Origin: Flavobacteriales bacterium
GTDB lineage: Bacteria > Bacteroidota > Bacteroidia > Flavobacteriales_E > Vicingaceae
Reading direction: 5' to 3'
DNA: 64,000 nt
NCBI GenBank assembly: GCA_020853105.1
Contig: JADYZM010000007.1
Location: 1-64,000, forward strand
Shown here piece after piece: positions 2,570-46,550 of this stretch. The notes under the pieces are model-generated. The model was not told the origin of the DNA. It saw only the letters and a list, made by a program, of their open reading frames with translations, and ran no database searches. How positions within the stretch are numbered: the first letter of the stretch is position 1; the number at the start of each line of letters is the position of its first letter. The position numbers and the translations under genes are program-made.

Positions 2570-5500
2570 TTGAAAAAACTTTTATTTTTATTTGTTCTTC
2601 TTTGTGCTTTCGAAGTTAAAGCACAATTTTTTGACGACTTTTCAGATGGAGATTTTACAGCAAACCCAACTTGGTCAGGAGATACTTCCCTTTTCACAAT
2701 CACATCTGGACAACTGAACTCTAAAAGCCCAACAGCAGCCACATATTCAATCAGCACCCCCTCAAGTTTAAGCACAAATGTTGAATTTATCTTTGATATT
2801 AATTTAAAATTTGCCACATCAGGATCAAATTATGTTGATGTTTTATTAATGAGTGACAGTGCTTTGCTAACCACAACTCAAAACGGCTATTTTGTCAGGA
2901 TTGGAAGCACTCAAGACGACTTAAAACTTTATAAAATTGTGTCAGGCGTTGAAACCCTTTTAATTGATGGGGCTGACGGTAGTGTTAACAGCAGTACAAA
3001 CAATTCATTTCGTATAAAAGTAACTAGAGATGCTTCAGATGTATGGACATTGTTGTATGACGACGGTATTCTAGGAACCTATACCAATGCCGGAACAATT
3101 AGTGATAATTCTGTTAACTCTTCATCTTTTTTTGGATTTAAAATTATTCAATCTTCGGCTGCCTCAGTTGTAAACAATCACTTTTTTGATACTATTTATG
3201 TAGGAACAATTGGGGCTGATTTGACTCCACCTTCAATTCTTTCCATATCCGTTATTGATTCAACCAAAATTGATGTGTTCTTTAGTGAAACAATTGAATT
3301 AATTTCAGCTCAAAATAATTCAAATTATTTAGCAGATAATGGACTGGGAAATCCGATATCAGCTATAAGAGATGCAGTTGATTCATCACTTGTACATTTG
3401 ATATTTTCAACCGCCTTTGCTAACTCTATTACAAACACTTTAACCATCAATAATGTTGAAGATTTGAGCGGAAATCCATTAATAAATGGCATAAAAACAT
3501 TTATTTATTCTGTTGTATCTATCCCATCATTAAGAGATGTTGTTATCAATGAAATATTTGCCGACCCAAGCCCGCAAATAGGACTGCCAAATGCTGAATT
3601 TGTAGAACTTTATAACGTCTCCAATCAGGCTTTCAATTTATCGGGCTGGAAGTTTATCAATTCAACAACAGCCAAATCTCTTCCAAATTATATTTTACCT
3701 CCCAATGGATTTGTTATCTTATGCAACAGTACAGACACTGCCCTTTACTCCTCTTACGGTTCAGTAATTGGAATATCGTCTTTTACAGCATTAACCAATG
3801 GTGGAGATAGCCTAACGCTGACTGATAGTTTAGGAAATTTGCTTGATGTAGTTTCTTACGATTTAAGCTGGTATCAAGATCCTGTTAAAGATGACGGTGG
3901 ATATACGCTTGAATTGATTAATCCTATTGCAAATTGCAGCGGTGCATTAAACTGGATAGGCTCTTTTAGCACAGATGGTGGAACACCAGGTTCTCAAAAT
4001 TCTGTATATGACATATCTCCTGACATGTTAAACCCAAAAATTACCAATGTAGATGTAGTTTCTTTAACTCAACTTACTGTATTTTTTGATGAAACTATGG
4101 ATAGTTCTAGTTTAGCAAATACCAATATCATTATTGATAATGGAATTAATGTAATGACTAGAACGATAACTTCAACACCAAATAAAATTGATATTTCTTT
4201 TTCTCCTGCTATTGATTCATCAACAGTTTATACCATTCAATTGGGAAATGCAACTGATTGCAGCGGAAATATACTGACTCCTGACAGCATTAAATTCGGA
4301 ATTGGAGTTTCTCCAAATCCAACTGAAATAGTTATTACAGAATTGTTTCCGGATTATGAACCTTCTATTGGATTGCCGCTATACGAATATGTTGAACTTT
4401 ACAACAACACATCAAAAGTAATCAATTTGAGCAATCTCAAATTATCAGACCCACTTACTACCAGCGGAACATTAAGTGGAAAATTAATGCCAAACGAATA
4501 TTTAATTGTTTGTGGAACAAGCTCAGTTAATCAATTTTCTCCCTACGGAAAAACCTGTGGAATTAGTAGTTTTCCATCATTAAACAATTCTGACGATGAA
4601 ATAAAGTTGGTTACCTCTTCTGGAACAATCATCCATCAGGTAAATTATTTCGACTCATGGTATCAAGACGAATCTAAAAAAGACGGTGGTTGGAGCTTAG
4701 AAATGGTTGACCCAAATAATCCTTGCGGAGAAATCAACAATTGGAGAGCTTCTACAAAATGGTTCGGCGGAACTCCAGGAACACAAAATTCTGTGTATGG
4801 AACTAACCCTGACATCGCTCCCCCAACAATTTTGTCGATTTATGCAACCAGCGATTCTACTGTTCAAATAACCTTTAATGAGTCTTTGTTTTTTGATTCT
4901 ATTTATATCAATACTGCCGTTTTGATTGATTCTGTAATTTATTCAAACAGCAAGACACTAACAGTTTATCTAACAACCAAATTACTGCCCCAAACAACCT
5001 ATCTTGTTTCAATATTCAATGTAACAGATTGTGTGGGTAATGTTCAAACGCTCAATTCTTCATTCTCATTGCCCGAGCAAGGAATTTTAGGGGATATTGT
5101 TATCAATGAGGTGTTATTTAATCCTTTTACCGGAGGAAGTGATTTTGTGGAAATTTACAATAAATCAGACAAATACATCAGTTTACAAAATTGGGAATTG
5201 GCAAACTACGATAACGATAGTATTTCTAACCGAAAAATTATTTCATCAAGTCCATTATTACTACTTCCTAAACAGTTTTTAGTACTCACTAAAGATAAAG
5301 CAAATATCAAAACCGAATATATTCTTGCCAAAGATGACAGAATACTTCAGATAGATGCACTACCCACATATAATAACGATAAAGGAAACGTGTATTTACA
5401 AAACAATATAAACCAAACCGTTGACAATTTTGGTTATTCAGAAAAAATGCATTTTGCTCTTTTAAATGATTTTAAAGGAGTTTCTCTTGAAAGAATAGAT

Positions 5501-5923
5501 TACGACAGACCAAGTAACGAGCTAACGAATTGGCATTCAGCAGCAGAGGATGTTGGGTATGCAACTCCCGGTTATGAAAACTCTCAATATAAAAATGTTG
5601 AACCATCAAGTGAAGTGAGCCTTGACCCTGAAACTTTTTCACCCGACAACGACGGGTTTGATGATGTATTAAACATCTCATATCAATTTGAAAAAGAGGG
5701 ATATGTTGCCAATATAGTAATCTATGATGTTAAAGGAAGACTTATTCGTAATTTAATATTAAATCAATTGTTAGGAACAAAAGGCACATTTAGCTGGGAT
5801 GGGATAAACGACAACAATGAAAAAGCTGCTATTGGAATTTATATTGTTTATTTTGAAGCTTTTAAAGTAGATGGGGAAACAAAGAAAATTAAAAAAACTG
5901 CTGTTTTAGGTGGACATTTGTAA
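2570..5923 (+). CDS. Large secreted protein with three lamin-tail domains and Ig-like domains
   Basis: The start is TTG at 2570: an in-frame stop lies just upstream and the codon opens a good signal peptide (KKLLFLFVLLCAFEVKAQ). The protein alternates SbsA-type Ig-like domains (about 217-315, 483-580, 745-835; each with P-x-I-x-x-h...D-x-x-x-h-x-V-x-F-x-E-x) with lamin-tail domains (about 322-480, 586-745, 841-1000; each opening I-x-I-N/T-E-h-h...E-F/Y-V-E-L-Y-N). The C-terminus (about 1010-1117) resembles a FlgD-type Ig domain: F-S-P-D-N-D-G-F-D-D...I-Y-D-V-K-G-R-L...W-D-G. Lamin-tail proteins of this kind are cell-surface or extracellular in Bacteroidota, sometimes with nucleases, but no catalytic domain is visible. 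The end (T-A-V-L-G-G-H-L) is not a classical T9SS type A or B signal. Confidence 0.8.
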   Translation: MKKLLFLFVLLCAFEVKAQFFDDFSDGDFTANPTWSGDTSLFTITSGQLNSKSPTAATYSISTPSSLSTNVEFIFDINLKFATSGSNYVDVLLMSDSALLTTTQNGYFVRIGSTQDDLKLYKIVSGVETLLIDGADGSVNSSTNNSFRIKVTRDASDVWTLLYDDGILGTYTNAGTISDNSVNSSSFFGFKIIQSSAASVVNNHFFDTIYVGTIGADLTPPSILSISVIDSTKIDVFFSETIELISAQNNSNYLADNGLGNPISAIRDAVDSSLVHLIFSTAFANSITNTLTINNVEDLSGNPLINGIKTFIYSVVSIPSLRDVVINEIFADPSPQIGLPNAEFVELYNVSNQAFNLSGWKFINSTTAKSLPNYILPPNGFVILCNSTDTALYSSYGSVIGISSFTALTNGGDSLTLTDSLGNLLDVVSYDLSWYQDPVKDDGGYTLELINPIANCSGALNWIGSFSTDGGTPGSQNSVYDISPDMLNPKITNVDVVSLTQLTVFFDETMDSSSLANTNIIIDNGINVMTRTITSTPNKIDISFSPAIDSSTVYTIQLGNATDCSGNILTPDSIKFGIGVSPNPTEIVITELFPDYEPSIGLPLYEYVELYNNTSKVINLSNLKLSDPLTTSGTLSGKLMPNEYLIVCGTSSVNQFSPYGKTCGISSFPSLNNSDDEIKLVTSSGTIIHQVNYFDSWYQDESKKDGGWSLEMVDPNNPCGEINNWRASTKWFGGTPGTQNSVYGTNPDIAPPTILSIYATSDSTVQITFNESLFFDSIYINTAVLIDSVIYSNSKTLTVYLTTKLLPQTTYLVSIFNVTDCVGNVQTLNSSFSLPEQGILGDIVINEVLFNPFTGGSDFVEIYNKSDKYISLQNWELANYDNDSISNRKIISSSPLLLLPKQFLVLTKDKANIKTEYILAKDDRILQIDALPTYNNDKGNVYLQNNINQTVDNFGYSEKMHFALLNDFKGVSLERIDYDRPSNELTNWHSAAEDVGYATPGYENSQYKNVEPSSEVSLDPETFSPDNDGFDDVLNISYQFEKEGYVANIVIYDVKGRLIRNLILNQLLGTKGTFSWDGINDNNEKAAIGIYIVYFEAFKVDGETKKIKKTAVLGGHL

Positions 5924-35461: not shown

Positions 35462-35488
35462 GCCCGAATGAAACTTCGGGCTTTTTTT
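35462..35488 (+). terminator. Intrinsic terminator
   Basis: GCCCGAA, TGAAAC, TTCGGGC followed by seven T residues, downstream of the DUF3078 gene. Confidence 0.93.
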
Positions 35489-35571
35489 ATTAAAAAATTC
35501 GGGATAATTTCACTTCTTGTATTTAGAAAGGCAACCTAAAAGTTCAACTTTCGTCTTTATTATCAAATGAA

Positions 35572-36144
35572 ATGAATCTTGCAAATCAAGACATACTTAA
35601 AAACATTATTGAACAGTGTATAAAAGAAGACAGAAAAGCTCAGAAACAGCTTTACACGTTATACTACGGTAAAATGATGAATGTGTGTTTAAGATACACA
35701 AAAAATGCTGATGATGCACAAGATTTGTTGCAAGACGGATTTGTGAAAGTGTTTAAACATTTAAAGGAGTATGACTTTAAAGGTTCTTTTGAAGGTTGGG
35801 TTAGGAGAATAGTTGTTAATACTGCTATTGATTTCTATAGAAAATATAAAGATGTGAATTTTGTTGATGACAGCGACAATCGCATACTGGAAATTTCAAA
35901 AGTAGAAAGTGCAGACAGTATTTACAGCAATTTTGGAGTTGAAGAAATAATGGTTTCCATTCAACAACTCTCTCCGGTATATAGAACAGTGTTCAATATG
36001 TATGTTTTAGATGGGTTCTCTCACAAAGAAATTTCTGAAGAATTAAATATTTCTGAAGGAACATCTAAATCTAACCTCTCAAAAGCAAAGCATAACCTGC
36101 AAGAAATATTATTAAGTAGAGCTAAAGTAAAGCAACATGGATAA
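35572..36144 (+). CDS. ECF-type RNA polymerase sigma factor
   Basis: The 190-residue protein has sigma region 2 (about 20-90; Y-T-K-N-A-D-D-A-Q-D-L-L-Q-D-G-F-V-K-V-F) and region 4 (about 125-180; L-S-P-V-Y-R-T-V-F-N-M-Y...G-F-S-H-K-E-I-S-E-E-L-N-I-S-E-G-T-S-K-S-N-L). No region 1 or 3 is present, as in ECF sigmas of Bacteroidota. It overlaps the next gene by 8 bases, the usual layout of a sigma/anti-sigma pair. A nearby giant adhesin gene is a plausible target (inference). Confidence 0.95.
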   Translation: MNLANQDILKNIIEQCIKEDRKAQKQLYTLYYGKMMNVCLRYTKNADDAQDLLQDGFVKVFKHLKEYDFKGSFEGWVRRIVVNTAIDFYRKYKDVNFVDDSDNRILEISKVESADSIYSNFGVEEIMVSIQQLSPVYRTVFNMYVLDGFSHKEISEELNISEGTSKSNLSKAKHNLQEILLSRAKVKQHG

Positions 36145-37393
36145 TTTTGAAAAACTAATAAAACAAAAGGTAGAGCAGTTTGAACCCAAGTTCAATGAAG
36201 CTCACTGGAATGCTCTTGACCAGAAATTAACTACTCTAAAAAGAATTCGTATAATTAAAACTTCAGTTATATCAACACTTTCTGCTGTTGCTGTGGCTGT
36301 TGGTGTTTATTTTGCATCAAACAATCAACCAAAAAACAATAACCAAACCATTACAAATGTCAACACAGAAAAATCGGATATTGTTTTAGAGCAAACATCA
36401 AAGTCAACTAACAAAACTATCACAACCGAAAAAAGTACCTTAAAATCAACCACACACACAGAAAAAGAAATTAGCCACGAAAACAAAATAAGTAATTCAG
36501 AAGAATCACCACAAAATACAACTACACTCTCACAAATTATACAAAATAATCCCCAAAATCCTGTAAAAGAGATTCAAAAAAATCAATCTACTGATTCTCA
36601 AGAAGTTTTAGCCCAATTTTCTGTTTCAGAAAATAAAGTTTGTGTTGGACAAGAAATCCAATTTTACACTCAAACAGAAGGCAATACACTCGCTTATGTT
36701 TGGGATTTTGGAGATGGTAATTATTCCAACAAAATGAATCCAAAAATAAGCTATAAAAATGCAGGCACATACAATTCAACTTTAACTGTTACCAATAAAA
36801 GAACCGGTATAGAAAGTAAGTCGAGCCAAACAATTATTGTTTTACCATTGCCAAACACAGACTTTTCATATTCTGAAATTTCATTGCAATTTGACGACAA
36901 TAAACTCAAATATCCCCAAACAGTTTTTAGTTGCAAAGGAGAACCTACAGACACTTATGAGTGGAATTTTATGGGAACTAAAACTTCAAATGAAAGGCAA
37001 CCTGCAATAATCTTTGAAAAAGCAGGCGATTATCAAGTAACTTTAACCTCAAAGGGAAAAAATGGTTGTAAAAATTCTGCTACAAAAACCATAACCATTC
37101 AAAACTCATTTGAATTATTTGCTCCAACAGCTTTTACCCCAAATTTTGATGGTAATAATGATAATTTCTTACCTGAAGCCATCTCAACATGGGATATTAA
37201 ATTCGAAATGATTGTTAAAAATAAATCAGGAAATGTTGTATATAAAACAACAGATAAAAATAGTCCATGGAATGGTAGTCTAAACAATTCCGGAAATATT
37301 CTGGAAGAAGGTATCTATTTTTGGCAAGTTATTACTTATGACGTTGAAGGAAAACCTTTTCAACACGTAGGTAAATTAACCTTGATGAAATAA
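36137..37393 (+). CDS. Putative membrane anti-sigma factor with PKD domains and T9SS type B C-terminal domain
   Basis: Residues 1-39 are charged and cytoplasm-like (F-E-K-L-I-K-Q-K-V-E...W-N-A-L-D-Q-K-L), resembling the sigma-binding ends of Bacteroidota anti-sigma proteins. A single helix lies at about 40-60, then a Ser/Thr/Asn/Lys-rich linker to 155. A PKD domain (about 160-238; Y-V-W-D-F-G-D-G) and a second PKD-like domain (about 243-323; Y-E-W-N-F-M-G) follow. The end (about 326-418; A-F-T-P-N-F-D-G-N-N-D-N-F and G-K-L-T-L-M-K) is the gliding-motility/T9SS type B domain. There is no cleavable signal peptide, so the protein is probably held in the inner membrane. The anti-sigma role is inferred from position and the N-terminus. 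Confidence 0.75.
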   Translation: MDNFEKLIKQKVEQFEPKFNEAHWNALDQKLTTLKRIRIIKTSVISTLSAVAVAVGVYFASNNQPKNNNQTITNVNTEKSDIVLEQTSKSTNKTITTEKSTLKSTTHTEKEISHENKISNSEESPQNTTTLSQIIQNNPQNPVKEIQKNQSTDSQEVLAQFSVSENKVCVGQEIQFYTQTEGNTLAYVWDFGDGNYSNKMNPKISYKNAGTYNSTLTVTNKRTGIESKSSQTIIVLPLPNTDFSYSEISLQFDDNKLKYPQTVFSCKGEPTDTYEWNFMGTKTSNERQPAIIFEKAGDYQVTLTSKGKNGCKNSATKTITIQNSFELFAPTAFTPNFDGNNDNFLPEAISTWDIKFEMIVKNKSGNVVYKTTDKNSPWNGSLNNSGNILEEGIYFWQVITYDVEGKPFQHVGKLTLMK

Positions 37394-37515
37394 AAAGTTT
37401 AACCACTTGAATTTTTGGATAAAAATTTTGTTGAAAATTTAAAAAATCTTATTTGATTTTTTATGTATAAAATTAGTATATTGGTACCTTGCGAATTAAC
37501 TAAAACACGAATGTT

Positions 37516-37914
37516 ATGAAATTAAATGTATTAAAAATAGTGTGTTTTTCTTTAGCATTATTTTTTAACGGATTGTTAAATCCTTTATTGTCTCAAAACT
37601 ATAAAATTAAAGATGGATACAAAACCCACTACGAAATTAAAAATCTCAACAGTTACTCAAACCCTGATAATGTAGTTATAGCCGCCGAAGAATGTACTTC
37701 TTTTGATAAAATCAGATATATAGACAAAAGAAGGTCTGTCCGATTGAAAAATTCAGATGTAATTATTGAACTTTATTCTGCATTGGAATTAAAAGAAATG
37801 TATGGTAAAGAAGTGTGTTTGTTAAATATTGACTCCAACAAGCTCCACACTGAAGTAGAGTTGATTTTTGTTAATAGTAAACACCCCATTTTTGAAATAA
37901 TTGAAATAAAATAA
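37516..37914 (+). CDS. Small secreted protein of unknown function
   Basis: The 132-residue protein has a good signal peptide (to about residue 27, N-P-L-L-S-Q) and a mature part of about 105 residues with no known motif, two Cys residues and mixed charge. Its stop overlaps the possible upstream ATG of the giant adhesin (TAATG), so it is translated together with the adhesin and may help its secretion or folding (inference). It is preceded by about 120 bases of AT-rich sequence that holds a TAnnTTTG-like element (TATATTGG, 37477-37484). Confidence 0.7.
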   Translation: MKLNVLKIVCFSLALFFNGLLNPLLSQNYKIKDGYKTHYEIKNLNSYSNPDNVVIAAEECTSFDKIRYIDKRRSVRLKNSDVIIELYSALELKEMYGKEVCLLNIDSNKLHTEVELIFVNSKHPIFEIIEIK

Positions 37915-37922
37915 TGATACTT

Positions 37923-40900
37923 ATGAAGAAAAAGCACTTAAAACTCAGTTGGATTGTTATTTTTTTTCTTTTTACTTTCCATGCCTATACTCAAACATAC
38001 AGCCCCGGTAGTAATAACTCATACAACACCTGTTCTGGGACTTTTTATGATTCCGGCGGATCGGGTGGAAATTATGGATTTAGTCAAAATTATACTGTAA
38101 CTTTTTGCTCAAACAACGGACAACCGATTTGGTTAAATTTCACATCATTTCAAACAGAAAATACTTGGGATTATTTATACATTTATAATGGTAGCACAAC
38201 AGGTGCACCACTTATGGGAACATATACAGGAACAAATAGTCCTGGTGTAGTGGTAGCCTCTGGAACATGTATAACTGTTCGTTTTACTAGTGATGCATCG
38301 GTTGCTTATGCAGGTTGGGCTGCAACTGTTGGTTGTGGAACACCACCACCGCCACCGCCATGTACACCATCTGCCCCAACAAACTTTCCTCCCGGTTGTA
38401 GCACAGCCCTTCCATTTTGTACAGGTTCAACCGTTACTTTCCCAAATTCAACAGGTACGGGTAGTGCAGGTACATATGATTGCCTCTTTACAACGCCAAA
38501 TCCATTTTGGTATTATTTAGAAATTGCTACTCCTGGTAACATTGATATCTCTATTCAACAAGTAAATGGTGGAGGTGGAGGTCTCGATGTGGATTTTGCG
38601 TTGATGGGACCCTATACAAGCGTTGCTGCTGCTTGCGCAAATCCGGCGGCCGGTTGTGTCGAAGATTGTAGTTACTCTGCCTCAGCCACTGAAACTGCTA
38701 ATATAACAGGTGCTCAAGTTGGCGAGGTATATATGCTGTTACTTACAAATTATGCAAATCAGGCAGGAACCATTTCTTTCAGTCAAACAGGTGGAGCAGG
38801 AGCAACCGATTGTTCGATTGTTAATCCCACATGTGATATTTCTAATGTTACTGCAACACCAAGTGCTTGTAATGCTTCAAATCAATATTCAGTTTCCGGT
38901 CAAGTTACATTTACCGATCCACCTGCCTCAGGAACACTTACAGTAACTTCTTCTTGCGGAGGCTCACAAACTTTTAATGCCCCCTTTACTTCTCCTTTAG
39001 CTTATAATATTACAGGAATTGCTGCAAATGGTGCTGCTTGTAATGTTACAGCAACATTCTCAGCTGATGCTGCATGTACTTACACAAGAAATTATTCATC
39101 TCCTAGTGTAATCACACCAACATTTAATGCTGTAGGTCCTTATTGTAATGGTGCTGCTATTCCTGCTCTCCCTACAACTTCAACTAATGGAATTACAGGA
39201 TCTTGGGCTCCTGCTATCAACAACACTGCTACAACAACCTACACATTCACTCCAACAGTTGGTCAATGTGCCACAACAACAACTTTAACCATCACTATTA
39301 CCCCAAAAACTACACCAACACTTAACGCTGTAGGTCCTTATTGTAATGGTGCTGCTATTCCTGCTCTACCAACAACATCAACCAATGGAGTTACAGGAAC
39401 TTGGGCTCCTGCAATCAATAATACAGCAACAACAACTTATACTTTTACACCTACTGCCGGGCTTTGTGCCAATACGACAACATTAACTATTACAATTACT
39501 CCAAAAACAACTCCTACCTTCACTGCAGTTCCACCTATTTGTAGTGGAGATGCACTAGCCGCCCTGTCAACAACTTCAAACAATGGAGTTACAGGGACAT
39601 GGTCGCCTGCAATGAATAACACAGCAACAACAACATATACTTTTACCCCCACTGCCGGGCTTTGTGCCAACACAACAACCATGACTATTACTGTTAACCC
39701 AAAAGTTACACCAACTTTTGCCGCTGTTGGTCCTTATTGTACTGGAGATGCAATACCTGCTCTACCAACAACATCAACAAATGGAATTCCAGGGACATGG
39801 TCGCCTGCAATAAACAATACAACTACAACAACATATACTTTCACCCCATCTGTTGGTCAATGTGCTAATACTACAACTCTTACAATTACCGTTGGTCCAA
39901 AAGTTACACCAACTTTTACTGCTGTTACACCCATTTGTAGTGGAGCAGCACTTTCTGCCTTACCAACTACATCAACCAACGGAGTTACAGGAACTTGGTC
40001 GCCCGCAATAAACAACACAGCAACAACAACATATACTTTTACCCCCACTGCCGGGCTTTGTGCCAACACAACAACCATGACTATTACAGTTAATCCTAAT
40101 CCTGTTGTTTCTGCAACAGCAGATAGTGTTTTGTGTAACGGAGGTTCAACTGGATCTGCAACTGTTACAAGTGTAACTAATAGTGTAGGACCATATACTT
40201 ACACATGGAACTCTGCACCTGTACAAAACACAGCTACAGCATCAGGATTGCCAATTGGTTCTTATACAGTAACAGTTCGTGATAATAATACTTTATGTCA
40301 AGGTCAAGCAACAGTACAAGTTTATCAACCTACATTGCTAACTTCAACTGAAAATCATGTAAATCCCACTTGTGCTCAGGGGACAAATGGTTCTGCTACT
40401 GTTTCTCCAAGTGGAGGAACCTTGCCATATTCGTATTCATGGAATACTTCTCCGATTCAAAACACAGTTACAGCAACTGGACTTACTCAAGGGACTTATA
40501 CTGCAACAGTTACCGATGGAAATGGTTGTGTAACTACAGCTATATCAAATATTGTTGACCCTGCAGGTATGGTTTTAGGAACTTCAATGACTCCTGCAGA
40601 TTGCGGAATGCCAACTGGAACTGCTACCGTGAATGTAAACTCCGGAGGTAGTGGAAACTTTTCGTATTCTTGGAATACAATTCCCGTACAAAATGTAGCA
40701 ACAGCTACAGCAATTCCGGCAGGAACATATATTGCTACAGTAACAGATAACACATTTGGTTGCGTTTCAACTGATACAATCACTGTAACAACTACAGTTG
40801 GAGTTACAGCAAATACTGTTTTAATCAATGATGCTCTTTGTAATGGTTCTAATGATGGAAAAGCTTATGCTTACCCAACTGGAGGAACATCTCCATATAC

Positions 40901-43900
40901 ATATTCATGGAACTCAACACCGGTTCAAAACAACGACACTCTAACAGCAGGAAATGGTACATATACTGTAACTATAACCGACAATGTTGGTTGTACAGGA
41001 ACAGCTACTATTACTATTGGACAACCAACAGCAGTATCTGCATCAATTTCAGGAAGTACTAATGAAACGTGCTTAGGAGCTAATAATGGTACTGCCACAG
41101 CTTCAGGATTGGGAGGAACTGGTTCATATACCTACTCATGGAATACAACTCCGGTTCAAACAACTCAAACAGCAACGGGATTAGCTCCAGGTGGTTATAT
41201 TGTTACAATTACAGACGCGAATTTATGCTCTTCCACAGCAAACATTACTATAAATACTGGCTCTTCAATGACAGCAACACATACTTATACAAATGTTTCA
41301 TGTTTTGGTGGTACTAATGGGTCTATTAATGTAACAGTTGGTGGTGCTCCTGGCGTAATTACTTACAATTGGATGCCTGGTAATATTGCTTCTGAAGATC
41401 CAGTGGGTCTTGCCGCAGGAACATATACTTTAACAGCTTCAAGCATGGGATGTTCTGTAAATGATACTGTTACTATTTCTCAACCGACTCAAATAGTTGC
41501 TGTTATTGATTCTGTGAGTGATGTTGTTTGTACAGGTGAATCCACAGGAAATATCTATGCATCTGCATCTGGTGGTACAGGAACTTTAACTTATTCTTGG
41601 AATACCACTCCAATTCAAAATACTCCAATAGCTTCAGATATACCTTTAGGCTCTTATGTATTAACTGTTACAGATTCATTAGGTTGTCAAAATACAATAA
41701 ATGCAAATGTGAATGAACCTGCTCCATTTGCTGTTAATCTTGGTTCTGTTGCTGCATATTGTAGTTTAAATCAAGGTACAATTTGGGCATTTCCAACAAA
41801 TGGAGTTGCTCCATATATTTATATGTGGGATACTGCGTCTGTAAATATCGGTTCAACAGATACTATTCATGGGCTATATCCGGGAACCTATAACATACAA
41901 GTTCAAGATGCTAACAACTGTAAATTTTTTGGAAATGTTTCAGTTGTTGGTTCGCCTGCTGGAACAGCAACAATATCTACTACAACAGATGTGAGTTGCT
42001 TTAATGGAAATGATGGAGCTGCAACTGTTTCAGTTTCAGGTGCATTTCCTGCTTATACTTACCTATGGGACGCAGCAGCAGGAAATCAAATAACAAATCC
42101 TGCAACAAACTTACAAGCAGGCACTTATTCAGTTGTAGTTACTGATAGTTTAGGATGTGTTATGAACACAAGCACAACAATAAATGAACCACTAGTTTTA
42201 AGCACAACATCTACACAAGGAAATACTGTTTGTCCTAACTCCTGTGACGGAACAGCAACTACAACTCCAACGGGAGGAACATCTCCCTACTCATATCTTT
42301 GGAATGATCCATCTACACAAGTAACAGCTACTGCTATTAATTTGTGTCAAGGAACATTTACAGTACAAATTAACGATGCTAATGGATGCTCAATTTCTGA
42401 TAGTTTAACAATTAGCAACCCTTTAGCCATGAATGTGGATAGTGTAGTGTTTGCTGCAAATTGTAATCAATCAGATGGGGCAGCAGAGGCTTTTGTATCT
42501 GCAAACGGGCAAGCTCCTTTTACATACGAATGGACCGATGGAACAAACACATTAAGTACAACCTATCAATTAACAGGTGTTGTAGCCGGAACTTATTATG
42601 TAACAGCTACTGATTTTTATGGTTGTACAGTTACTATTCCTGTTACAATTCCAAACATGGCGGGTCCACAAATTGACTCAACCAGTAAAGTTGATGTGTT
42701 GTGTTTTGGTGATAATACAGGGTCAGCAACTGTTCACGTTTCAGGAGGAACAATGCCATATTCATATATTTGGGATGATGCTTTATCGCAAACAAACCCT
42801 TCTGCAGTTAATTTAATTGCAGGCAGCTACATTGTAAATGTTACTGATGGCAACGGATGTAATTTATCTACCTCTGTTACAATTAGCCAACCGACACAAA
42901 TGGTACTAAGCTCAGGAAACATTGACCCAACTTGTTTTGGATATAGCGACGGAGCTGTTTATGTAAATACAGTTGGAGGAATCACACCATATTCGTATTC
43001 ATGGAACGACGCATTAGCTCAAACCAATGATACAGCCACCGGATTAAATCAAGGAAATTACACAGTAACTGTAACTGATGCAAATGGTTGTATTCAAACA
43101 GCCAATGCAACATTAACGGACCCTGCAATTTTTACTGTAAATGTTACAGGTACTGATGTTAGTTGTTTTGGTGGAAATGACGGAACAGCAGTTGTATCTG
43201 AAAATAACGGAGTATCTCCTTTTACATATTTGTGGAGTGATGTTTCAGCACAATCAACCCAAACTGCTACTGGTTTAATTGCAAATACATACACAGTTAC
43301 AGCAACTGATAATAGCGGTTGTGTAGCTAATGGCTCAGTTACAATCAATGAGCCCTCTGAATTGATTTTATCACTTGACACTTCCTTAGATGTGTCCTGT
43401 TATGGACTTTCAGACGGGTTTGCATCTCTTGATGTAATTGGAGGAACTGGTGCTTACACTTTTACTTGGGACTTAAATGGTAATTTAGTTTCAACTTTCC
43501 AATCACCAAACAACTTATCAGCAGGAACATATTCAGTAACAGTTACAGATGGAAATGGCTGTACAGACCAGATATTTGTTACAATTAACCAACCTTCAGT
43601 ATTTACAGCATCATTTGTTGCTGTTAACGCATTGTGTGCAGGAGATAATTCCGGATATGCTTATGTTCTTCCGAGTGGTGGTGTTGCACCTTATTCATAT
43701 CAATGGAATGCAGCAGCTGCATTACAGCAAACAGATACAGCATTCAATCTAATTGCAGGTACCTATGGTGTTGATGTAACAGACAGCAATGGATGTATAA
43801 TTCCAATTACGGGTATTGTAATCAATCAACCCCAACCATTAACTATGACAACAAGCACTGTTTCTTCAACATGTGGAAATAATAATGGAGAAGCTAGTGT

Positions 43901-46550
43901 AAGCGTGGGTGGTGGTTCTGGAAATTATAACTACAATTGGAATTCTAACCCTACTCAATCAACTGCACTCGCAACAAATCTTTTTGCAGGAAACTATACT
44001 ATTGTTGTTACTGACCAAAATGGCTGTGTTGATTCAACTAATGTTAATGTAACGGATTTAGGTAGTCCTACAGTAACAATACCAACTACTACAAATGTTA
44101 GCTGTAATGGAGCTGCAGATGGTACTGCAACAGCAAATGTTACAGGTGGTACTACTCCATATACCTATTCTTGGAATACTAACCCGGTTCAAAATACAAT
44201 TACTGCAACAGGTTTAAATGCACAAACCTATTCAATAACAGTTACTGATAGTAATGGTTGTATTGCTTCTGCATCAACTACAATTCAACAGGCAAATGCA
44301 TTAATTGCTGTTATTGGCACACCAATACCTGTGAGTTGTAATGGAGGTACTGACGGTGAAGCTACAGTAATGGTGGCTGGTGGAATTTTACCATATTCAT
44401 ACACTTGGAATGATGCTGCTACACAAACAACAACTACAGCATCAAACTTGACTGCTGGAACATATATAGTAACAGTTGCCGACAGTAATAACTGTACAGC
44501 TCTAGATACAGTTACAATCATTGAACCTGCTGTATTGGTTGTAGGATTAGATTCATTGAAGAACATCAACTGTAATGGAGGCTCTGATGGATTTATTGAT
44601 ATTAATGCAACCGGAGGTAACTTTCCATATATTTCTTATGCATGGACACCAAATATCAGTTCTGGTCAAACCGCTTCAGGATTAACACCTGGTACATATT
44701 CAGTTATTGTTACTGATAATAAAGGGTGTACAGCAACAAACAACTATACTATAACTGAACCAACTGCATTAGTAATAACCTTGTCAAGCAATCCTTCAAC
44801 GTGTGGAAATAGCAACGGTAGTGCTCAAGTATCATCAACAGTTGGCGGAACTTCGCCATATTCATACAATTGGAATGATCCATCTAACCAACAAACAGCT
44901 TTGGCATCAAATTTATCTGCAAATCTATATACTGTTACAGTTAGAGATAACAACAACTGTACAGTAACAGATACAATTTCTGTAATTGATCTTGCAGGCC
45001 CTGTGATTGATTCGATTGTAAAAACTAATGTAATTTGTTTTGGAGAATCAAATGGTACAGCTACAGTACATGCCTCAGGGAACGGATTAAATTATTTGTG
45101 GAATCCATCATCTCAAATATCACAACAAGCAACAGGTTTACCAATTGGTGTTTATACAATAACAGTAACAGATATAAATGGTTGCACAGCATCACAAGGC
45201 GGAATAACAATTTCTCAACCCACAGCACTTACTGCTGATATAAATATGCCAGCAACTGCTTGTTATGGGCAAACTATCCAACTATATGGAATTGGAGGTG
45301 GCGGAGTTCCTTTTGCTCCTCCAGCAAGTTCATACACAGTATTATGGGGGCCTCCATTTAGTACAACAACCCCTGGTCCTTTGTTTGATACTGTAACTTC
45401 AAATACTACATATAACATTGTGGTTCAAGATGCAAATGGATGTACAAAATTCTATAACGAAAGTGTTGTTGTTGGACAGCCATTAAATATCACTTCCTCA
45501 AACAAACAAATTTGTTTGGGAGAATTTGCTGCACTATCTGCATCAACAACCGGAGGAAACACAAATAATACTTTTAATTATTATTGGAATGAATATGACT
45601 CAACGTCGGGTACTTATACTACCCCTACGGGCGTTATAAATCCGATGGATTATCCACATGTTAATCCTACACAAACAACAACATACATGGTTTATGTAAG
45701 TGACGGCTGCTCAAGAAACGATTCTACTTTCTTTGTTGTAACTGTTAAAGACACAAGTATTGTTTTGATTACTTCAGATATTGAAGAAGGTTGTGTTCCA
45801 TTAAAAGTTAAGTTTTACACATCTTCAAGTGATAGTAATTTAACATACTCATGGGATTTTGATGGAAATGGTTCTATCAATCAAACAACTTTACTGGATT
45901 CTACAACATATACCTACACAAGTTCAGGAATATATGAAGTTTACCTAACAGTTACGAATTCTGATGGTTGTAAATCGTTGATAAAGAAACCAAAAAATAT
46001 ACAAGTACATGAAAACCCTGTAGCTGATTTTGTTCCTAACCCTGATATTGCTACTATTTTGAATCCTGAAATTCAATTCACTGATATATCATCATCAGAT
46101 GTAATCAATTGGGAATGGTATTTTGGAGATGGTGAAACGGATTTAACAAATCAGCACCCTCTTCACGAATACTCAGACACAGGACATTATGCAGTAACAT
46201 TAATCGTATCGAACTTGTATTGTACAGATACTGTTATGAAATATGTTATAATCAAACCGGATATTTTCTTTGCAATTCCAAATACATTTACACCAAATGG
46301 TGATGGATTAAATGATATTTTTAAACCAGGAACTTTGGTTGGTGTTTCGCCAAACGATTATAATTTTTTAATTTTTGACAGATGGGGAGATAAAATTTGG
46401 GAAGGACATGACTTAAATTCAGGATGGGACGGTAAAGCAAATGATGGAAGTGAAATAGCTCAAACCGGTACTTATGTGTGGTTAATTAAACTAAAAGGTA
46501 TAGATGGGCTGGTCAGAGAATATAGAGGACATGTTAATTTATTAAAATAA
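37923..46550 (+). CDS. Giant SprB-like surface adhesin, T9SS type B cargo
   Basis: I choose ATG at 37923 (M-K-K-K-H-L-K..., signal peptide to about Y-T-Q); ATG at 37914 adds M-I-L. The layout is: a CUB domain (about 32-143; S-G-T-F-Y-D-S-G-G...W-D-Y-L-Y-I-Y-N-G), a second beta region (to about 390), five nearly identical Ig-like repeats of about 65 residues (39115-40105), then about 22 SprB-type repeats of about 77 residues (to 45230; each with C-x-G...G-G-x-x-P-Y-x-Y-x-W...G-x-Y-x-V-x-V-T-D-x-x-G-C), a divergent unit, two PKD domains (W-D-F-D-G-N-G; W-Y-F-G-D-G) and the type B C-terminal domain (N-T-F-T-P-N-G-D-G-L-N-D-I-F). SprB of Flavobacterium is the moving adhesin of gliding. No SprF homologue follows this gene. 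Confidence 0.92.
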   Translation: MKKKHLKLSWIVIFFLFTFHAYTQTYSPGSNNSYNTCSGTFYDSGGSGGNYGFSQNYTVTFCSNNGQPIWLNFTSFQTENTWDYLYIYNGSTTGAPLMGTYTGTNSPGVVVASGTCITVRFTSDASVAYAGWAATVGCGTPPPPPPCTPSAPTNFPPGCSTALPFCTGSTVTFPNSTGTGSAGTYDCLFTTPNPFWYYLEIATPGNIDISIQQVNGGGGGLDVDFALMGPYTSVAAACANPAAGCVEDCSYSASATETANITGAQVGEVYMLLLTNYANQAGTISFSQTGGAGATDCSIVNPTCDISNVTATPSACNASNQYSVSGQVTFTDPPASGTLTVTSSCGGSQTFNAPFTSPLAYNITGIAANGAACNVTATFSADAACTYTRNYSSPSVITPTFNAVGPYCNGAAIPALPTTSTNGITGSWAPAINNTATTTYTFTPTVGQCATTTTLTITITPKTTPTLNAVGPYCNGAAIPALPTTSTNGVTGTWAPAINNTATTTYTFTPTAGLCANTTTLTITITPKTTPTFTAVPPICSGDALAALSTTSNNGVTGTWSPAMNNTATTTYTFTPTAGLCANTTTMTITVNPKVTPTFAAVGPYCTGDAIPALPTTSTNGIPGTWSPAINNTTTTTYTFTPSVGQCANTTTLTITVGPKVTPTFTAVTPICSGAALSALPTTSTNGVTGTWSPAINNTATTTYTFTPTAGLCANTTTMTITVNPNPVVSATADSVLCNGGSTGSATVTSVTNSVGPYTYTWNSAPVQNTATASGLPIGSYTVTVRDNNTLCQGQATVQVYQPTLLTSTENHVNPTCAQGTNGSATVSPSGGTLPYSYSWNTSPIQNTVTATGLTQGTYTATVTDGNGCVTTAISNIVDPAGMVLGTSMTPADCGMPTGTATVNVNSGGSGNFSYSWNTIPVQNVATATAIPAGTYIATVTDNTFGCVSTDTITVTTTVGVTANTVLINDALCNGSNDGKAYAYPTGGTSPYTYSWNSTPVQNNDTLTAGNGTYTVTITDNVGCTGTATITIGQPTAVSASISGSTNETCLGANNGTATASGLGGTGSYTYSWNTTPVQTTQTATGLAPGGYIVTITDANLCSSTANITINTGSSMTATHTYTNVSCFGGTNGSINVTVGGAPGVITYNWMPGNIASEDPVGLAAGTYTLTASSMGCSVNDTVTISQPTQIVAVIDSVSDVVCTGESTGNIYASASGGTGTLTYSWNTTPIQNTPIASDIPLGSYVLTVTDSLGCQNTINANVNEPAPFAVNLGSVAAYCSLNQGTIWAFPTNGVAPYIYMWDTASVNIGSTDTIHGLYPGTYNIQVQDANNCKFFGNVSVVGSPAGTATISTTTDVSCFNGNDGAATVSVSGAFPAYTYLWDAAAGNQITNPATNLQAGTYSVVVTDSLGCVMNTSTTINEPLVLSTTSTQGNTVCPNSCDGTATTTPTGGTSPYSYLWNDPSTQVTATAINLCQGTFTVQINDANGCSISDSLTISNPLAMNVDSVVFAANCNQSDGAAEAFVSANGQAPFTYEWTDGTNTLSTTYQLTGVVAGTYYVTATDFYGCTVTIPVTIPNMAGPQIDSTSKVDVLCFGDNTGSATVHVSGGTMPYSYIWDDALSQTNPSAVNLIAGSYIVNVTDGNGCNLSTSVTISQPTQMVLSSGNIDPTCFGYSDGAVYVNTVGGITPYSYSWNDALAQTNDTATGLNQGNYTVTVTDANGCIQTANATLTDPAIFTVNVTGTDVSCFGGNDGTAVVSENNGVSPFTYLWSDVSAQSTQTATGLIANTYTVTATDNSGCVANGSVTINEPSELILSLDTSLDVSCYGLSDGFASLDVIGGTGAYTFTWDLNGNLVSTFQSPNNLSAGTYSVTVTDGNGCTDQIFVTINQPSVFTASFVAVNALCAGDNSGYAYVLPSGGVAPYSYQWNAAAALQQTDTAFNLIAGTYGVDVTDSNGCIIPITGIVINQPQPLTMTTSTVSSTCGNNNGEASVSVGGGSGNYNYNWNSNPTQSTALATNLFAGNYTIVVTDQNGCVDSTNVNVTDLGSPTVTIPTTTNVSCNGAADGTATANVTGGTTPYTYSWNTNPVQNTITATGLNAQTYSITVTDSNGCIASASTTIQQANALIAVIGTPIPVSCNGGTDGEATVMVAGGILPYSYTWNDAATQTTTTASNLTAGTYIVTVADSNNCTALDTVTIIEPAVLVVGLDSLKNINCNGGSDGFIDINATGGNFPYISYAWTPNISSGQTASGLTPGTYSVIVTDNKGCTATNNYTITEPTALVITLSSNPSTCGNSNGSAQVSSTVGGTSPYSYNWNDPSNQQTALASNLSANLYTVTVRDNNNCTVTDTISVIDLAGPVIDSIVKTNVICFGESNGTATVHASGNGLNYLWNPSSQISQQATGLPIGVYTITVTDINGCTASQGGITISQPTALTADINMPATACYGQTIQLYGIGGGGVPFAPPASSYTVLWGPPFSTTTPGPLFDTVTSNTTYNIVVQDANGCTKFYNESVVVGQPLNITSSNKQICLGEFAALSASTTGGNTNNTFNYYWNEYDSTSGTYTTPTGVINPMDYPHVNPTQTTTYMVYVSDGCSRNDSTFFVVTVKDTSIVLITSDIEEGCVPLKVKFYTSSSDSNLTYSWDFDGNGSINQTTLLDSTTYTYTSSGIYEVYLTVTNSDGCKSLIKKPKNIQVHENPVADFVPNPDIATILNPEIQFTDISSSDVINWEWYFGDGETDLTNQHPLHEYSDTGHYAVTLIVSNLYCTDTVMKYVIIKPDIFFAIPNTFTPNGDGLNDIFKPGTLVGVSPNDYNFLIFDRWGDKIWEGHDLNSGWDGKANDGSEIAQTGTYVWLIKLKGIDGLVREYRGHVNLLK
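39115..40105 (+). repeat. Five tandem Ig-like coding repeats of about 195-198 bp
   Basis: Each unit encodes P-x-C-x-G-x-A-x-x-A-L-x-T-T-S-x-N-G...W-x-P-A. A 74-bp stretch is identical at 39618-39691 and 40014-40087 (396 bp, two units apart), which suggests recent recombination or conversion. Confidence 0.9.
40106..45230 (+). repeat. About 22 SprB-type coding repeats of about 230 bp
   Basis: Repeats of about 76-80 codons share the Cys...Trp-Asn...Thr-Asp...Gly-Cys frame. They differ much more from each other than the Ig-like units do, and are therefore older. Confidence 0.88.

Follow-up and report, generated by a model that had tools for sequence, protein, structure and literature searches.

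A Dma-like sigma/anti-sigma pair bearing a type IX cargo tag as a candidate sensor of secretion traffic in Bacteroidota

The idea of an anti-sigma factor that spans both membranes comes from the Dma proteins, which consist of an N-terminal sigma-binding domain, a membrane helix, a disordered tether and a beta-barrel, and one of which, Dma2, has been proposed to sense glycan (PMC13088901). The type B C-terminal domains (CTDs) carried by cargo of the type IX secretion system (T9SS) bind cognate PorP/SprF proteins, which serve them as shuttle or anchor and are partners known from experiment (PMC9143113, PMC12618676). Beyond PorXY-SigP of Porphyromonas gingivalis and one promoter class of Flavobacterium psychrophilum little was found in the literature on the control of the T9SS, and no explanation was found there of how the supply of large adhesins is matched to T9SS capacity in Bacteroidota.

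The window (the whole stretch of 64,000 nucleotides that was analysed, from a Flavobacteriales bacterium) contains an ECF sigma factor gene followed by the gene of a membrane protein, here called the partner, which ends in a type B CTD. The partner is probably best explained as a Dma-like transmembrane unit, an anti-sigma that would mimic a cargo tag and tune the expression of T9SS cargo.

The locus and the architecture of the partner

A first-pass annotation had delimited four genes at this locus, and all four were borne out in the window, on the + strand. The sigma and partner genes share 8 nt. The features are:

35462..35481, + strand: terminator-like hairpin between the upstream DUF3078 gene and the sigma gene
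35530..35555, + strand: ECF-type promoter, GGCAACC-N15-CGTC, 16 nt before the sigma start codon
35572..36144, + strand: ECF sigma factor gene (190 aa; Sigma70_r2 9e-18, r4_2 3e-16)
36137..37393, + strand: gene of the anti-sigma-like membrane protein with type B CTD, the partner (418 aa)
36137..36247, + strand: candidate sigma-binding cytoplasmic part of the partner, residues 1-37, in which helices 2-15 and 21-35 flank the invariant W24 (the "W motif")
36251..36319, + strand: transmembrane (TM) helix of the partner, residues 39-61 (Kyte-Doolittle)
36326..36598, + strand: disordered periplasmic tether of the partner, residues ~64-154, rich in T, N, S, Q, K and E and of low pLDDT
36599..37102, + strand: two PKD/Ig-like domains of the partner, residues 155-237 and 241-322 (Pfam, AlphaFold2 model)
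37121..37390, + strand: T9SS type B CTD of the partner, residues 329-418, without the RWG motif of cargo CTDs (Pfam, CTD alignment)
37516..37914, + strand: small secreted protein gene (132 aa)
37914..46550, + strand: giant surface adhesin gene (2878 aa; type B CTD at residues 2787-2877)

The small secreted protein had no match in Pfam or NCBIfam, and a homologue (63%) adjoins the adhesin in a genome of the same genus (L031). Elsewhere in the window (2570-5923) a further long protein of 1117 aa is encoded, with a CHU_C match barely over the cut-off (29.5 bits).

The PKD and type B domains beyond the partner's TM helix had been described as the same parts that end the giant adhesin, and this is confirmed by the alignment of residues 153-418 with the last 266 residues of the adhesin (2613-2878; 28% identity, E 3e-18). 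Two PKD domains were found in the partner by Pfam (3e-23), together with a CHU_C type IX signal over residues 329-401 that scores 42.7 bits against a cut-off of 27, but the narrower model TIGR04131 stays under its cut-off (26.9 against 35), and the partner's CTD is thus a divergent one. There was no match to the FecR periplasmic domain in the partner (Pfam). The absence of an N-terminal signal peptide, likewise annotated at the outset, holds on grounds of composition, as the sole hydrophobic segment (39-61) comes after 38 residues that are mostly polar and charged; the Kyte-Doolittle maximum is 1.87, at residues 39-57, and past residue 70 the next best value is 0.69.

An AlphaFold2 model of the partner built with 43 aligned relatives has N-terminal helices at 2-15 and 21-35 and confident beta-sandwiches from residue 155 to the C-terminus, with pLDDT below 50 over 38-138 and 146-151. 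The best Foldseek matches to this model were fragments of the giant grappling-hook protein GhpA from Aureispira, and VIA-align gave Z 13 for residues 155-237 against PKD domains. W24 is invariant in the alignments and tandem copies of the W motif occur in relatives. At the 76 loci of the survey described below the gene after sigma usually encodes a TM helix preceded by at least one short W motif, and this motif is likely to be the sigma-binding unit. The RWG motif is missing in all 31 anti-sigma CTDs aligned and present in nearly all the type B cargo CTDs compared, and the anti-sigma CTDs have a signature of their own in common, F.PKAL ... WNG..NN.G. Together these features suggest a domain specialised away from export, and one whose binding to a shuttle, with RWG missing, may not be the same as that of cargo.

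Conservation of the pair and its relatives

When 60 relatives were searched with the partner protein, the matches comprised many partial ones to adhesins and a separate full-length class. In the first 30 loci sigma lay directly upstream of 25/25 full-length partner genes and of 0/5 partial adhesin matches, and at the 31 mapped loci the two genes had the same orientation and were spaced by -26 to +75 nt. A sigma profile detected an ortholog, well above paralogs, in 35 of the 37 family genomes. A survey of genomes for ECF genes overlapping TM-PKD-type B genes had been proposed in the first-pass annotation, and across genomes the sensor layout proved to be conserved in many genera. When named genomes were surveyed starting from sigma, blind to the partner and its CTD, the next gene could be read at 76 loci, of which 44 encode a W-TM-CTD protein next to sigma and 32 have other next genes, at least three of the latter (L084, L115, L116) resembling cut or broken CTD forms. 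Two forms without PKD domains (L098, 217 aa, with a CTD below the Pfam cut-off, and L129, 298 aa) retain W, TM and CTD; these are therefore the constant parts, and the constant end is the CTD rather than the PKD pair.

A phylum-wide search with a partner profile (296 genomes) was dominated by ordinary PKD-CTD adhesins and, among the best five candidates per genome, gave a near full-length match only in the window's own genome and one other. Dependence on the T9SS was also sought through co-occurrence with SprA, which proved uninformative since SprA is found in nearly all relatives (all 60 except one 84%-complete genome). Four sigma genes from records labelled Glaciecola, Kuenenia, Polynucleobacter and Chryseobacterium (L109, CP034120.1; L077; L084; L087) group with a Crocinitomicaceae-rich set, and the record labels look wrong.

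The link of the sensor to the T9SS made in the first-pass annotation gains support from related anti-sigmas with a PorP/SprF domain or beside a PorP/SprF gene. The window's own genome has 9 PorP/SprF matches. In one family (f12) a PorP/SprF domain (Pfam E 1.5e-21, 1.9e-19 and 2.7e-23) follows the several W motifs, the TM helix and the linker of the anti-sigma, and directly 3' of this gene is encoded a lipoprotein-like protein of ~211-218 aa with a type B CTD-like end, CHU_C being confirmed in two. At three further loci (L099, L113, L402) the anti-sigma is a short W-TM form, and after it comes a complete PorP/SprF gene (E 1e-62 to 1e-65), which bears its own copy of the promoter motif. In relatives from the Saprospiraceae, Cytophagales and Bacteroidales the end of the anti-sigma is formed by generic barrel domains of the outer membrane (OMP_b-brl). 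A tree of 96 sigmas places the CTD, PorP and most barrel types together, with two paralog groups elsewhere, the branch that joins the CTD, PorP and barrel types being weak (77/88). Stand-alone pairs of PorP/SprF and CTD-lipoprotein genes, without a sigma gene, were also seen (L455, 1180-2848; L456, 761-2379) and are a possible source of the f12 fusion.

Promoter motif and predicted targets

The site at 35530-35555, GGCAACCTAAAAGTTCAACTTTCGTC, has the form GGCAACC-N14-16-CGT(C/T), which is the general shape of an ECF promoter. No second exact copy occurs in the window, where 0.01 would be expected, and a matching site lies 5' of 28/31 mapped and 32/44 named related sigma genes, compared with 0.08% of shuffled upstreams, part of the missing matches being due to start codons called too early. 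It is most likely, to judge from these upstream regions, that sigma drives its own operon. Two further pairs are present in the window's own genome. A paralogous pair (L388, G000:C77:90800-95400; sigma 1075-1617, partner 1625-2734) has a partner of 369 aa likewise ending in PKD and type B CTD, and its promoter, TGCAACC-N16-CATCT, is found almost exclusively at its own sigma gene. The GGCAACC motif therefore fits the window's sigma (sigma 1) and not this paralog (sigma 2), and a CTD on the anti-sigma does not always mean a cargo regulon. The third pair (L389, G000:C35:18200-22500) has a 470-aa partner with tandem W motifs and no CTD match.

The predicted regulon was defined by exact matches to the pattern GGCAACC-N14-16-CGTC, which gave 84 copies in 25 family genomes, 19 of them at the sigma gene itself. 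Among the non-sigma loci fetched, 33/48 copies were intergenic and no more than 100 nt from a start codon, a fraction that is an upper bound because about a dozen further sites with GC-rich, random-looking spacers lie outside the 48 and count as failures. A reversed control motif was in promoter position in 0/32 cases and inside genes in 29/32. The complete targets are dominated by cargo: 27/30 proteins end in a CTD (21 type B and 6 type A; Pfam), and two non-CTD targets among the 30 are MbnP-like lipoproteins. Left out of this count were two complete frames close to motif copies, one for a DNA-binding-like protein 96 nt from the motif (G017:C18) and one with the motif inside the gene (G023:C6). 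The whole of the window's own genome has just 34 type B CTD matches above the cut-off, so that the CTD enrichment among targets is large. In that genome the sole exact cargo target is a 1813-aa type B adhesin, and three copies of a looser motif lie 5' of genes for secreted proteins, one of these being a type B protein of 328 aa. As far as sequence goes, the predicted link of the sigma pair to T9SS cargo is a strong one.

One genome rated 100% complete (G022) has three motif-bearing cargo genes and no sigma ortholog was found in it, for which either an assembly gap or the use of a paralog may account. At two loci (L221, 369-2283; L242, 1802-3761) a motif-driven gene for an MbnP-like lipoprotein is followed by a cytochrome-peroxidase-like gene, and such gene pairs are possibly a non-T9SS part of the regulon. 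A looser motif tried in six distant genomes gave sites mostly within genes or mixed, and was dropped.

Proposed mechanism and comparison with described systems

It is proposed that the partner acts as an inner-membrane anti-sigma, whose two-helix N-terminus would hold sigma and whose tethered periplasmic end would mimic a type B cargo tag. A tether of ~90 residues plus two domains should be long enough to span the periplasm, and the mimic would dock at the outer-membrane site of cargo tags, most likely a PorP/SprF-type shuttle or the adjoining translocon; a barrel of this sort could in turn serve as the docking place of the CTD that replaces a barrel here. The docking state would set whether the anti-sigma keeps or frees sigma, probably by way of proteolysis of the anti-sigma, by analogy with other membrane anti-sigmas, and free sigma would act on its own operon and on scattered genes whose products are T9SS surface proteins, for the most part type B adhesins. 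As most of the targets are cargo, the simplest scheme is a negative feedback in which cargo competes with the mimic. Vacant shuttles would leave the mimic engaged and the adhesin genes on, and cargo filling the shuttles would displace the mimic and turn the genes off. A circuit that gauges the occupancy of the secretion route in this manner, with T9SS cargo competing with the mimic for PorP/SprF and so setting the rate of its own synthesis, and with PorP/SprF placed on the anti-sigma in related lineages, is put forward tentatively.

The main rival comes from the one clade with a shuttle gene under the same motif (L099/L113/L402) and gives the control the opposite sign. The CTD would normally be docked and shielded, and where shuttles are overloaded or missing the displaced anti-sigma would be degraded and sigma turned on, the extra shuttle then relieving the jam. 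In TonB-dependent transducers, too, an anti-sigma is protected from proteolysis by its outer-membrane partner (PMC11637429). The targets in the family of the window are mostly cargo, however, and a jam answered with more cargo would reinforce itself through positive feedback, which leaves a jam response unlikely. Slightly less likely again is that the surface or envelope is sensed and not secretion, the PKD domains and CTD having been borrowed from adhesins as spacer and binding domain for a ligand, the cell wall or envelope stress. Such a sensor would agree with the generic outer-membrane barrels that end other related anti-sigmas, with the glycan-sensing proposal for Dma2 (PMC13088901) and with the missing RWG motif, but the CTD is kept where both PKD domains are lost, PorP/SprF takes its place in related pairs, a swap visible in the sequences themselves, and the target set is almost all T9SS cargo.

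Two other readings are far less probable. The first-pass annotation had coupled the adjacent giant adhesin specifically to the pair, and a dedicated adhesin locus, in which sigma gene and giant adhesin belong together and the pair serves mainly that adhesin, would fit the single strand, the failure to find a terminator-like site in the stretch from the partner gene to the adhesin genes, the same gene order in the genus-mate L031 and the cargo-like genes 3' of the pair in 10/44 named loci, distant ones included. That coupling was not upheld. The adhesin is absent beside the pair in most relatives, which have other neighbours there, e.g. malate dehydrogenase, the window has no motif at the adhesin, and the motif targets are dispersed; as a general rule the dedicated locus was rejected because the neighbours differ in most relatives, and as a reading of the pair it is very unlikely. 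Adjacency of adhesin and pair appears to recur and not to be the rule. Having no motif of its own, the adhesin could be controlled by the pair only via read-through, and it is a possible read-through target of the sigma operon. The claim that adhesin output is tuned thus survives in part, being well supported by sequence for the dispersed T9SS adhesin genes fronted by the motif but not for the neighbouring adhesin. The least probable reading is that the periplasmic part is cut from the TM helix and exported as ordinary T9SS cargo, sigma control being a by-product or absent; a recognisable CHU_C domain above the cut-off would permit export, but the partner is without a signal peptide and the RWG motif, and its coupling to an autoregulated ECF sigma gene is conserved.

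The conservation of the pair in many relatives and the recurrence of the sigma promoter in front of tag-bearing surface proteins suggest that these bacteria may monitor the traffic through their own T9SS and set adhesin production accordingly. The pair is a tangible candidate for such a sensor and is widely conserved, and it comes with a defined motif for its promoter, predicted targets and a predicted class of partner, PorP/SprF.

Control of the T9SS by an ECF sigma factor had been related at first to PorX-SigP of Porphyromonas. A precedent that went unnamed there is PorA, a protein with a T9SS signal that feeds an ECF pathway (PMC7712824). PorA-PorY-PorX-SigP of P. gingivalis resembles the present case in that a CTD protein influences an autoregulated T9SS-linked ECF sigma, but PorA is a secreted surface protein acting via a two-component system, whereas in the present pair the presumed anti-sigma itself bears the CTD, and SigP, which PorX activates, controls genes of the machinery, whereas here the motif marks cargo genes (PMC7712824, PMC4800418). 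The adjacent anti-sigma-like gene argues for a type other than PorX-activated SigP. The SM6 ECF regulon of Flavobacterium psychrophilum shares the class of CGT -10 box, with an ECF/anti-sigma pair and T9SS genes, but these encode machinery (GldN, PorU) and not cargo (PMC9723704). Type B cargo with PorP/SprF shuttles (SprB-SprF, PG1035-PorP) has, like the partner, a CHU_C-type CTD after PKD (PMC9143113, PMC12618676); unlike such cargo the partner is membrane-anchored, without signal peptide or RWG, and coupled to a sigma factor.

The layout had been thought not to be described. It is real and conserved in many genera, but its architecture has a precedent in the Dma anti-sigmas (PMC13088901), which the first-pass annotation did not name. 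Dma and the partner have in common their occurrence in Bacteroidota, an adjacent sigma gene, an N-terminal sigma-binding part (a candidate one here), one TM helix and a long disordered tether, and some of the related pairs likewise have OMP_b-brl domains at their end. They differ in the C-terminal part for the outer membrane, which is a barrel in Dma and PKD-PKD-type B CTD in the partner, and in the regulon, which comprises vesiculation or polysaccharide loci for Dma and, as predicted, T9SS cargo for the partner. Judged by sequence comparison, the pair is a real and conserved Dma-like variant with the CTD in place of the barrel as its new element, and the Dma idea would thereby be extended to an outer-membrane end exchangeable among barrel, shuttle and cargo tag.
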